Of a DNA stretch of 64,000 nt, positions 23,527-59,757 are shown piece by piece; the stretch's first letter is position 1; each line of letters opens with the position of its first letter. This stretch comes from a bacterium. GTDB lineage: Bacteria; Verrucomicrobiota; Verrucomicrobiia; Verrucomicrobiales; Akkermansiaceae. Below the pieces are notes generated by a model, which saw only the letters and a list, made by a program, of their open reading frames with translations, made no database searches and had not been told where the DNA came from. A program made the translations under genes and the position numbers. The stretch is from the NCBI GenBank assembly GCA_018222765.1, contig JAAEZT010000001.1, positions 83,462-147,461 of the forward strand. The letters run 5' to 3'.

Positions 23527-23608
23527 GCCGGGATGGTGGAATTGGTAGACACGCGTGATTTAGGATCACGTGCCCTAGGGCGTGCAGGTTCGACCCCTGT
23601 TCCCGGTA
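23527..23608 (+). tRNA. tRNA-Leu (anticodon TAG)
   Basis: Acceptor GCCGGGA (23527-23533) pairs with TCCCGGT (23601-23607) with one G-U pair; the discriminator is A at 23608. The anticodon stem is CGTGA/TCACG, with loop TTTAGGA and anticodon TAG at 23561-23563. A long variable arm (TGCCCTAGGGCGTG region) marks a class II tRNA, and the T-arm contains GGTTCGA. The 3' CCA is not encoded. Confidence 0.95.
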
Positions 23609-23837: not shown

Positions 23838-23873
23838 GCGACGCTCTCCGCCCTCAAAGTTCAGCGTTCAAAG

Positions 23874-24232
23874 AGGCCGCTCCCCTGTAAGCCGGATTCT
23901 GTTCCATCCACCCTATGTGGACTTCAGCAGTCATTTATCTTTGCGACTATTACCCGGGGATCAAACGGACGAGCAGCCCTTCCCCTGTTCTGTCTTGCAC
24001 TGTGAGAGGTTTACCCAGCCACCTCGGTCACCCTCGGCGCGGTGGGCTCTTACCCCACCATTTCACCCTTACCTCCCGAAGAAGGCGGTCTGTTTTCTGC
24101 GGCACTATCTGTCCGATGATCCTCGCGAATCACCGTCCCTCATTTTCATAAGGCACACTGCTCTGTAGTGTCCGGACTTTCCTCCAGTCCCCTTCCGAAG
24201 AAGAAAACCAGCGACTGCCCGGGGAGCGGACA
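23874..24232 (-). ncRNA. rnpB: RNase P RNA (bacterial type A-like)
   Basis: Read on the minus strand, the 5' part contains the universal GAGGAAAGTCCGGAC block (near 24187-24170) and the 3' part ends with ACAGAATCCGGCTTACAGG (near 23905-23887). The ends pair as helix P1: CCGCTCCCC (complement of 24221-24229) with GGGGAGCGG (complement of 23877-23885). Length is about 355 nt. This is the catalytic RNA that matures tRNA 5' ends. Exact ends are estimated from P1. Confidence 0.93.
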
Positions 24233-49323: not shown

Positions 49324-49398
49324 GCTCGGCTAGCTCAGGGGTAGAGCACTACATTGACATTGTAGGGGTCGCTGGTTCAAATCCAGCGTCGAGCACCA
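49324..49398 (+). tRNA. tRNA-Val (anticodon GAC)
   Basis: Acceptor GCTCGGC (49324-49330) pairs with GTCGAGC (49388-49394) with one G-U pair. The anticodon stem is CTACA/TGTAG, loop TTGACAT, anticodon GAC at 49356-49358; the T-arm is GCTGG-TTCAAAT-CCAGC. The 3' ACCA is encoded (49395-49398), unlike the tRNA-Leu in this window. A T-run follows at once. Confidence 0.95.
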
Positions 49399-57050: not shown

Positions 57051-57824
57051 TCAGCGCTCAATCTTCTCAACCGCCTTCCTTAGCCCATCCTCGATCTCTT
57101 CGGGCAGGCCATAAGACGAGAGTTCCTTCACAAAAACATCCCAGTCCTTGTTCTTTCCACTCCCGAGATAGGCATTTAATCGGGTTGCCACGGTCGAGTC
57201 CGCCAATGACTTCCCATCGGTATAAGTCTTCCCCAAAAAACTCCGGATATCGCTATAGCGAGTCAGATAATATTTCTGATGATAAGCTTCGGCGTAGGTG
57301 AACTCCCCCACTGGAAGAATCGCGGTCTTCACCGCATCCGGGGAGACTCCTTGTGCCTTCGCCGCATTCGCCACACTGGCTTGGGCTGCCTTCTTTTGCT
57401 CGTCGTTGTGATAAAACAAGGCATTCATATACTGTCGGGAATACCCCGCCTGGTCACAGCGATGGGCACTCCAGAAAAGATGCAACATGTCTTCGTATTT
57501 CAAGACCTCCGGATCGTAATCAATCGAGATCACCTCGGTATGATTTCCCAAACTGTGGTAGGATGGATTTTTCTTCTCACCCCCGGCGTAGCCCACGCGG
57601 GTGCGAATCACTCCCTTAAGACTTCCGAACTCGGAGTCTGGTCCCCAAAATCATCCTAAACCAAAAGTCGCCGTCTCAAATTTCTTTGAAGCCAGCTTCT
57701 TATCCAGCGGAAGGGTCTTCGCAGACACCGTTCCGTCTGCCTTGGCTAATTTTTCTCCGGTCGCAAGTCCTGCCATGATGAGCAAAGATGTCGCGACCGC
57801 CCCGATGAGCAAACGAATTTTCAT
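57051..57824 (-). CDS. msrA: Selenocysteine-containing methionine sulfoxide reductase A (TGA-decoded)
   Basis: Reading the minus strand from ATG 57824 through TGA 57653-57651 as Sec gives 257 aa. A signal peptide (MKIRLLIGAVATSLLIMAG) is followed by TATFGLG-U-FWGPDSEFG; the MsrA catalytic motif is GCFWG, so Sec58 replaces the nucleophilic Cys. The rest is typical: TRVGYAGGEKKNPSYHSLG, HTEVISIDYDP, FWSAHRCDQAGYSRQYMNALFYHN, and AYHQKYYL. Without the recoding only a GTG start at 57611 is available, giving a protein without active site and signal peptide. The product should repair methionine sulfoxide in the periplasm. Sec-containing MsrA is known in a few bacteria and algae. No C-terminal resolving Cys pair is seen, as in other one-Sec forms. 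Confidence 0.88.
57619..57653 (-). promoter_or_regulatory. msrA: Sec codon and candidate SECIS hairpin of msrA
   Basis: On the minus strand, TGA (57653-57651) is followed after 11 bases by AGACT-CCG, loop AGTT, CGG-(A)-AGTCT (57639-57619): an 8-bp stem with one bulged A. The loop begins 19 bases after the TGA, close to the spacing in the formate dehydrogenase. The loop sequence differs from GGTCT but contains G-U, as most bacterial SECIS apical loops do. Confidence 0.65.
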
Positions 57825-57921
57825 AATTAAGTGAATCCTGTGCTCACGAAGATGGCCTACTTGGCGATTTATTCCAGCACGGGTTGACGATTCCTTTTCT
57901 TTCGCGTTGGCTCGACCACAG

Positions 57922-59757
57922 ATGGCCGAGCCCGAGACAATCTCCGAATTCGCTCAGCGCGTGCTGATGAGCGATTCTTTGGAGGAAAAGCTCACTCACG
58001 CTCCGAGGCACCTCATCCTGGATCCTCCTTCAAAAGAGACCATCACCATCCCAGATACCCCGGGCCGCCCCTCCCACCTCTTCCCCAGCAGCAACGAGGG
58101 CCGCTCTCCATTTCCCGGCACCCACCAGATTGAAGACGAAGAGCAACGAGCCATCCTCCTCCACTTTTTCGCCAACCACGAACTTCTTGCCGTCGAGCTC
58201 ATGGCTCTGGCCTTACTCAAATTCCCCGACGCGCCCAATTCCTTTCGAAAGGGCGTTCTCCACACTCTCAAAGAGGAACAAAACCACACCCGCTGGTATC
58301 TCAAGCGCATGGAAGAATGCGGCGTCAAATTCGGCGACTACCATCTCAGCCCCATGATCTGGTCGCACATCTCTCCCATGGAGAGCCCGCTCGACTACGT
58401 CTCCACGCTCTCGCTCACTTTTGAGCAAGCCAACCTCGACTACGCCAAGCACTACTCAGAAATCCTAGCGCAGTCCGGCGATCAAAAGTCCGCCAAGATT
58501 CTCTCGAAAATCTACCACGATGAGATTGCCCACGTCGGTCACGGCTTGAAATGGCTCCGCCGTTGGAAGGAGCAATCGCAATCGGATTGGGATGCCTGGC
58601 ACAAGCAACTCCACTTCCCGGTCTCTCCCATTCGTGCCAAAGGAAAAGTCCCCTTCAACGAAGAAGGCCGTCGGCTGGCCGGGCTCGACGAGAATTTCAT
58701 CTCCTCGCTCCGTCGCTACCAATCATCCCGGGGACGCAGCCCTGATCTCTACTACTTCAATCCCGACGCCGAACCAGCCGCGGCTCATCCTGGTTGGAAG
58801 ACCCCAAAGCGTCTCGAAGAACTCGCCGCCGATTTGGAATACGCCTTCGCTCTTTCCATCCCAACCGAAGACGACCTTGTCCTTCTCCGGCGCCTCCCCA
58901 GCGATCAACATCGTGATTTTCTAAGTAAGAAAGGACTTCACTTTCCAGAAGTCGGATTGCTGGCCGACATCGATGAGATACGAAAACATCGAAAGTTCCG
59001 CGACAAACGTCCCTGGGGCTACGCTTCCAAGGAATTGCTCTCTAAAAAATTCGGCCTCGAACTTCGTGACCTAATTGAGGAATCCCCCATCCCCTCGGCC
59101 ATCTGTTCCAGCAAAGAAGACGCCCTCGCTTTCATCGCGGAGTATCCCCACGAAGAATGGATCGCCAAACCTCTCCACAGCTCGGCCGGCCGAGGCAACA
59201 AACGCTTCCACCGCAACTCCATGGAAGTTCCCAAAGGCGATTTCCTCATCGAACCCTGGCTGGAAAAAATCATGGAGTTCTCCCTCCTCTATCAAATCGG
59301 GCGCCCCGAAGAGGGCGGCATTCGTTGCCTCGGACTTTCCCGCCAGGAGGTCAGCAAAGACGGCCAGTGGCTCAGCTCAACTTCCTATCCCAAGCCCGCG
59401 GTCGGCATACCCGTCGAGCACGCGCAAGTCATCTCCAATCAAGTCATGCCCTTTGCCAAAAAGAAGATTTGCCGCGCGCTTAAAACTCTTCTCGAAGGCC
59501 ACGACTACCTTGGACCGCTCTGCATCGATTCCTTCCTCTACTTTTCCGAAGGAGAGCTCAAATGGCACCCCGTCAGCGAGGTCAACGTCCGCTGGTCTAT
59601 GGGAAGACTCGCGCATCAACTACGCAAACGACTCGCGCCTGACAGCTCCCTGACGCTCACCACCTGCCCTCCTGATGAAGCAAAAGCAATGAACAACGGC
59701 TTTCCACTCGGAGACCCCGATCAAGCCACCGCACGAGTTCCCGTGATTCGCTTTTAA
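57922..59757 (+). CDS. DUF455 ferritin-like domain fused to an ATP-grasp-like domain
   Basis: 611 aa from ATG 57922; an in-frame TTG five codons upstream is weaker. Residues about 5-255 match DUF455, a ferritin-like four-helix fold: EEQNHTRWYLKRM and HDEIAHVGHGLKWL supply EExxH and DExxH metal ligands, with LTFEQANLDYAKHY between. After a linker, about 400-610 looks ATP-grasp-like: WIAKPLHSSAGRGNKRF (Lys and Gly-rich phosphate loop), LIEPWLEKIMEFSL, and SEVNVRWSMGRL (compare the Mg2+-binding E-x-N-x-R). I infer a di-iron/ligase fusion; neither the substrate nor an operon partner is evident. The stop shares TTAA with the convergent MYG1-like gene. Confidence 0.72.
   Translation: MAEPETISEFAQRVLMSDSLEEKLTHAPRHLILDPPSKETITIPDTPGRPSHLFPSSNEGRSPFPGTHQIEDEEQRAILLHFFANHELLAVELMALALLKFPDAPNSFRKGVLHTLKEEQNHTRWYLKRMEECGVKFGDYHLSPMIWSHISPMESPLDYVSTLSLTFEQANLDYAKHYSEILAQSGDQKSAKILSKIYHDEIAHVGHGLKWLRRWKEQSQSDWDAWHKQLHFPVSPIRAKGKVPFNEEGRRLAGLDENFISSLRRYQSSRGRSPDLYYFNPDAEPAAAHPGWKTPKRLEELAADLEYAFALSIPTEDDLVLLRRLPSDQHRDFLSKKGLHFPEVGLLADIDEIRKHRKFRDKRPWGYASKELLSKKFGLELRDLIEESPIPSAICSSKEDALAFIAEYPHEEWIAKPLHSSAGRGNKRFHRNSMEVPKGDFLIEPWLEKIMEFSLLYQIGRPEEGGIRCLGLSRQEVSKDGQWLSSTSYPKPAVGIPVEHAQVISNQVMPFAKKKICRALKTLLEGHDYLGPLCIDSFLYFSEGELKWHPVSEVNVRWSMGRLAHQLRKRLAPDSSLTLTTCPPDEAKAMNNGFPLGDPDQATARVPVIRF

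Follow-up and report, generated by a model that had tools for sequence, protein, structure and literature searches.

In a group of Verrucomicrobia, a gene that a plain open reading frame finder lists as truncated and inactive very probably encodes, as far as its sequence tells, a functional selenoenzyme. It lies on the minus strand of the window, the 64,000-nucleotide stretch of DNA analysed here (G000:C26:83462-147461), which is part of a 4.33 Mb draft genome of 87 contigs that is 97.8% complete. We estimate at about 95% the probability that the gene encodes a selenocysteine-containing MsrA (Sec-MsrA) decoded through SelB. It is in all probability a genuine selenoprotein gene whose kind is known: passages of three papers already describe the Sec-MsrA family (PMC4333827, PMC4479559, PMC2398784), so that the finding adds a lineage and not a kind. 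The preliminary description of this DNA had regarded an exported Sec-MsrA in a probable Verrucomicrobium as a notable addition, which holds for the lineage but not for the kind. The more interesting point, absent from that description, is an additional cysteine, Cys123, in which the Verrucomicrobial enzyme departs from its Clostridium counterpart and which makes this variant worth a test at the bench. The features discussed are collected in Table 1.

Table 1. Features of the Sec-msrA locus, in window coordinates
Feature	Position	Strand	Details and basis
Sec-msrA gene	57051-57824	-	ATG 57824-57822 to stop TGA 57053-57051; 257-residue product; orthologues
In-frame TGA, predicted selenocysteine, residue 58, catalytic position of GCFWG	57651-57653	-	sequence and conservation
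Signal-like N-terminal segment, residues about 1-21, basic then hydrophobic	57762-57824	-	sequence, hydropathy scan
C-terminal helical domain, about residues 191-257	57054-57254	-	alignment and model; also present in Clostridium oremlandii Sec-MsrA
Codon of Cys123 (HRC), candidate resolving cysteine	57456-57458	-	alignments; position computed from the start codon
Hairpin core, putative bacterial SECIS	57620-57638	-	apical loop AGUU at 57631-57628; folding, recoding tests, covariation

The msrA frame and its in-frame TGA codon

At this locus the mechanical list of open reading frames contains only 57051-57611, with a GTG start at 57611, a frame that begins downstream of the MsrA active site; a plain gene caller would accordingly report a truncated enzyme, as the preliminary description had pointed out. 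That description had also extended the frame upstream to an ATG across one TGA at the catalytic position, and the extended frame indeed contains this single internal TGA, in the context GLG-U-FWG. The profiles of two MsrA families match the 257-residue product across it: Pfam PMSR (PF01625) at residues 51-188 (5e-38; 131.2 bits against a cut-off of 23.7) and NCBIfam msrA (TIGR00401) at residues 50-186 (112.5 bits against a cut-off of 108.1). A match to the NCBIfam profile for VPGUxxT thioredoxin-like selenoprotein type 2 was rejected, because its score of 45 bits lies below the cut-off of 275 and its best position in the genome is this same msrA gene. The promoter scan at the gene gave no excess (two found against a shuffle mean of 1.2), and the terminator scan there found none.

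The nearest named homologue records, among the best 80 of 424 found, come from Verrucomicrobiaceae, Verrucomicrobiales and Akkermansiaceae, which agrees with the earlier assignment of the host to the Verrucomicrobia. These best 80 also served as the named loci for comparison. Across 111 aligned loci with a match, the codon for residue 58 is TGA in 51 and TGT or TGC in 58, and two loci (L049 and L096) are cut before this residue and were excluded from the codon counts. TGA stands there in every one of the 34 Verrucomicrobial copies of the gene that were fetched and extend over residue 58, at identities of 49.8 to 99.6% (29 distinct sequences when identical ones are counted once), and also in 17 loci from other phyla. 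The genus is represented by 27 genomes, the one studied here among them, of which 21 have a TGA copy; the copy is cut by a contig end in G002 and G020, and only weaker MsrA matches were found in G011, G012, G022 and G024. A phylum-wide search of 288 genomes drawn evenly returned 34 rows at E<=1e-45, three with a TGA inside: the gene itself, G048 and G259, the last of which was rejected as an ordinary GCFWG MsrA whose TGA is its following stop. In a relative of the same order the copy (G076:C12:30430-31095, 40% identity) contains one internal TGA and one internal TAA and is perhaps decaying.

With 34 of 34 loci in agreement, the stop codon at residue 58 is, on this alignment, not a product of chance. 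If it were a true stop, the locus would be a pseudogene, or would yield a short peptide and an inactive truncated MsrA from the GTG at 57611. The mechanical list, which has the truncated frame only, agrees with such a reading, and an ordinary Cys-MsrA encoded elsewhere in the genome, 37% identical to Sec-MsrA, could cover the function. We nevertheless consider it very improbable, in view of the TGA shared by all 34 Verrucomicrobial loci, whose frames are otherwise open, and of the full set of selenocysteine genes in the genome. The preliminary description had reasoned that relatives keeping TGA while losing the surrounding MsrA residues would speak against selenocysteine; the relatives keep both the codon and the MsrA residues on its two flanks. 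A sequencing error in place of a real TGC or TGT, conceivable in a draft of 87 contigs, is extremely improbable, as TGA stands in the copies of 28 other genomes (51 to 95% identity) as well as in the named records.

A tree of 73 rows, built by a quick method with residue 58 masked, columns 80 and 123 kept and an arbitrary root, included 25 (plus L010) of the 58 Cys-form loci. It places its 30 Verrucomicrobial rows on one side of a branch with an SH-aLRT value of 92, below the 95 mark. The surrounding group of 49 rows includes two Cys rows on long branches, L071 and L077. Haloarchaea (Halorutilus, Natrinema, Natronorubrum, Halopiger) have MsrAs as well, represented by L071, whose codon at residue 58 is TGT, and by plasmid hits H1-H6. 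The match extends to at least residue 221, past the catalytic domain, in L071 and in five of the six plasmid hits, and these proteins are possibly Cys forms of the two-domain type.

Selenocysteine machinery and the hairpin downstream of the TGA

The interpretation as Sec-MsrA, already proposed from the sequence, is supported by the conserved TGA together with selA, selB, selC and selD, all of which are present in the genome; the preliminary description had held that a genome without selB or selC would refute it. The tRNA-Sec has the anticodon UCA (54 bits, cut-off 47), selA scores 488 bits, and selB (272 bits) encodes the SelB beta-barrel and the third winged-helix domain (SelB-wing_3). The selD gene (374 bits) contains an in-frame TGA of its own after SSCGG, and the SelD of this genome is probably itself a selenoprotein; the gene is located at L020 1501-2430 (G000:C60:58831-59760). 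That UGA is read as another amino acid, by reassignment or a suppressor, is likewise extremely improbable, since UGA also terminates this same gene and the genome has a UCA tRNA of the selenocysteine type.

In 97 genomes (own included), whose lists were compiled by hand, selA was found in 28 of 29 genomes with a TGA-containing msrA versus 25 of 68 without it (Fisher p 1.5e-8), and outside the genus in 8 of 8 versus 20 of 62 (p 3e-4); both p-values are too small because the genomes are related. The sole genome with a TGA-containing msrA and no selA match (G001) is 86% complete and has selB.

Folding reproduced the stem-loop that the preliminary description had placed 11 bases after the TGA, with the core GACUCCG-AGUU-CGGA-a-GUC. 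Measured by total folding energy the stem-loop does not stand out (z of 0.11 relative to dinucleotide-shuffled sequences), and 239 of 1000 synonymous recodings of a 36-nt stretch are at least equally stable, which counts against the SECIS reading. For 41 distinct sequences the mean z is -1.34, with p<=0.05 in 12. In line with the SECIS check proposed earlier, an Rfam scan of 57560-57700 was run and returned three chance-like matches, all far below the gathering scores. Only 3 of 2000 synonymous recodings of the window's sequence reach this hairpin, and p<=0.05 is attained by 23 of the 24 distinct sequences from Verrucomicrobia and by 12 of 17 from other phyla; these p-values apply to a hairpin picked by eye, because the two registers tested were both chosen after sight of the sequences. 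The Verrucomicrobial exception is L038 (rank 357 of 2000). Five sequences of other phyla (L066, L067, L069, L070 and L072) give no score in the two registers; the folds of three of these (L067, L069 and L072) contain a hairpin whose loop is wider.

The choice of codons within the stem is unusually uniform at two serines. Of 29 Verrucomicrobial sequences, 27 use TCC for Ser64 and 27 use AGT for Ser68, a uniformity that none of the gene's 26 background codons with sixfold degeneracy attains; the uniformity of the Asp63 and Phe66 codons is not unusual. Codons 65, 66 and 67 change together, the 29 sequences having GAG-TTC-GGA (20), GAG-TTC-GGT (1), CAG-TTT-GGG (7) or CGG-TTC-GGG (1). Where Glu65 is replaced by Gln (CAG), Phe66 is TTT and Gly67 is GGG in seven of seven cases, and the one Arg65 (CGG) goes with TTC and GGG; the linked changes at Phe66 and Gly67 are silent and, as read from the sequences, restore the predicted pairing. 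In other phyla CGG occurs with TTC-GGG in 10 of 10 cases, and CAG with TTT in two and with TTC in two. The 25 sequences of the Gln/Arg register have 87.4% of cells paired and a covariation of 0.310 versus 0.160 after shuffling (0 of 500), with at most 0.131 at slid positions; two of five measures do not exceed the shuffles, namely double-change pairs (3; 146 of 500) and further pair types (7; 188 of 500). Among 18 sequences that share the window's type, pairing reaches 96.8% of cells without any covariation, which is uninformative because the hairpin hardly varies there.

In bacterial SECIS elements the apical loop carries a G close to its beginning, and the G at the second base of AGUU would fit this rule. 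The hairpin appears to be held by synonymous codon choice and by coupled changes of codons, which is what a SECIS would show, and is a putative site of SelB binding.

Predicted export and an additional cysteine

The N-terminus is hydrophobic at residues about 5-21 (mean hydropathy up to 2.09), followed by GLATGE (A-x-G), and an AlphaFold2 model has a helix at residues 3-21, with low confidence there. Signal-like starts occur in 18 of 22 Verrucomicrobial rows of alignment A1; in L047, L048, L050 and L051 the start chosen by the script omits this segment, which reflects either a wrong start or a real lack. Where a signal peptide had been proposed earlier, sequence and hydropathy show a signal-like segment, and judging from the sequence Sec-MsrA is probably exported. 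Export would not be special to the Verrucomicrobial clade, because hydrophobic segments stand at the start of several Sec-MsrAs from other phyla as well.

The neighbours of the gene, which suggest no function for it, encode a DUF455 protein, a small lipoprotein-like ORF and an M29 peptidase. At least one neighbour match adjoins msrA in L023 to L039, L049 and L052 to L056 (some cut by contig ends), and none was found beside the gene in L040 to L048, L050 and L051. The divergent neighbour (57907-59757, plus strand) has DUF455 at residues 44-265 and some 350 further residues with no Pfam match at E<=0.001. Elsewhere, the window carries RNase P RNA and two tRNA genes (23872-24230, minus strand; 23527-23608 and 49324-49395, plus strand).

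In the mechanism that we propose, the UGA would be read by the Sec-tRNA(UCA), brought by SelB bound to the downstream hairpin, so that the chain is not ended. The selenol of residue 58 would then attack the sulfoxide of an oxidised methionine, with a proton from Glu97, giving methionine and a selenenic acid. In the C. oremlandii enzyme (CoMsrA), residue 16 is catalytic and Glu55 is the proton donor, according to passages of PMC4479559 and PMC4333827; with an alignment offset of 42, these correspond to residue 58 and Glu97. We infer both the insertion of selenocysteine at residue 58 and the enzymatic activity of the product. The conserved TGA, the selenocysteine machinery, the conservation of the hairpin and the MsrA fold with its helical domain support this mechanism at the level of sequence and model.

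The selenenic acid would next be resolved by Cys123, or by Cys80 in a few relatives, giving a selenenyl-sulfide that some reductant then reduces. Cys123 stands in HRC, replacing the proline of H-x-Pro, in 27 of 29 distinct Verrucomicrobial sequences, so that the enzyme falls outside the 1-Cys type, which has no cysteine besides the catalytic residue. The two sequences without it, L048 (Ala) and L050 (Tyr), both have Cys80 in GYCGG, as do six others. A swap of the thiol position between Cys123 and Cys80 is possible in these two but is not significant by itself: with Cys80 in 8 of 29 sequences, the chance of both falling there is about 0.07. Position 123 is Pro in 16 and Gly in one of the 17 TGA-encoded MsrAs of other phyla, none of which has cysteine at column 80 or 123, and none of the 58 Cys-form loci has a cysteine aligned at 119-127. 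In the alignment the CoMsrA counterpart of Cys123 is residue 81, which precedes by five residues the L2-loop stretch 86-91; a passage of PMC4479559 reports that this stretch shifts in the dimer of CoMsrA, with displacements of 6.4 to 6.7 A for Gln89 and Tyr90. A Sec-Cys bond is plausible because of this closeness in sequence to the loop stretch, and that Cys123 is a built-in resolving thiol for Sec58 has, judging from the alignments, only slightly less than an even chance.

At nearly even odds stands a Sec-MsrA in which Cys123 is a structural or substrate-binding replacement in the H-x-Pro loop and the enzyme works in the 1-Cys mode of Clostridium, an external thiol attacking the selenenic acid. 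The Clostridium enzyme does without a second cysteine and is thought to be recycled by glutaredoxin, and also through a dimer, according to part of PMC4479559. The two Verrucomicrobial sequences lacking Cys123 are in keeping with a non-resolving role. The cysteine-bearing sequences form one tree group, so the conservation of Cys123 may represent one gain and its retention. Against this reading stand the retention of Cys123 in nearly all Verrucomicrobial sequences, the Cys80 of the two that lack it, and the absence of a corresponding cysteine from the selenocysteine forms of other phyla and from the Cys forms. Taking Cys123 as the resolving thiol, we tentatively suggest, at somewhat short of an even chance, that in Verrucomicrobia the Sec-only, glutaredoxin-dependent type known in Clostridium was turned into an exported Sec-MsrA that supplies a resolving thiol itself, close to its active site (Cys123 or Cys80), and so has a self-sufficient Sec/Cys pair fit for periplasmic conditions.

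Comparison with known MsrA enzymes

A literature search that covered few subscription papers found no report of a Verrucomicrobial Sec-MsrA. In the Global Ocean Sampling survey (PMC2398784), a table includes MsrA among the selenoprotein families of ocean metagenomes; the first figure of its row, 9, is taken here as the number of Sec sequences, the passage giving the row without column heads, and the string 'Verrucomicrob' is absent from the text of that paper.

The resolving cysteines of 2-Cys and 3-Cys MsrAs lie near the C-terminus and not in the H-x-P loop. These enzymes, known from Mycobacterium tuberculosis and E. coli, share with the Verrucomicrobial one the catalytic fold and the GCFWG motif, whereas their catalytic residue is Cys. 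They would share the principle of a resolving cysteine, as part of PMC4479559 describes it, and lack a helical domain of this type according to a passage of PMC4333827.

The best solved relatives of the product are forms of the C. oremlandii Sec-MsrA (2e-46; PDB 4LWJ, 4LWK, 4LWL, 4LWM, 4U66 and 4W8C), about 40% identical to the Verrucomicrobial enzyme. The AlphaFold2 model (mean pLDDT 90.9) superimposes on CoMsrA with a TM score of 0.89 by target length and 0.72 by query; its residues 48-257 match 4lwj with Z 25.8 and an rmsd of 2.5 over 205 residues, helical domain included. The two enzymes have in common selenocysteine at the catalytic position in a GUFWGPD motif, a Tyr/Glu/Gln/Tyr/His/Tyr active-site set by alignment, and the C-terminal helical domain, which a passage of PMC4333827 describes for CoMsrA. 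They differ in the N-terminus, signal-like in the Verrucomicrobial protein but not in the aligned CoMsrA sequence, and in Cys123, which is added to an enzyme type whose catalytic residue is, in CoMsrA, the sole Cys/Sec (PMC4479559, in part). The recycling of MsrAs without a resolving cysteine is poorly understood, as the same paper notes, and the two lineages offer a natural comparison: the same two-domain selenocysteine enzyme with and without a cysteine in the H-x-Pro loop.
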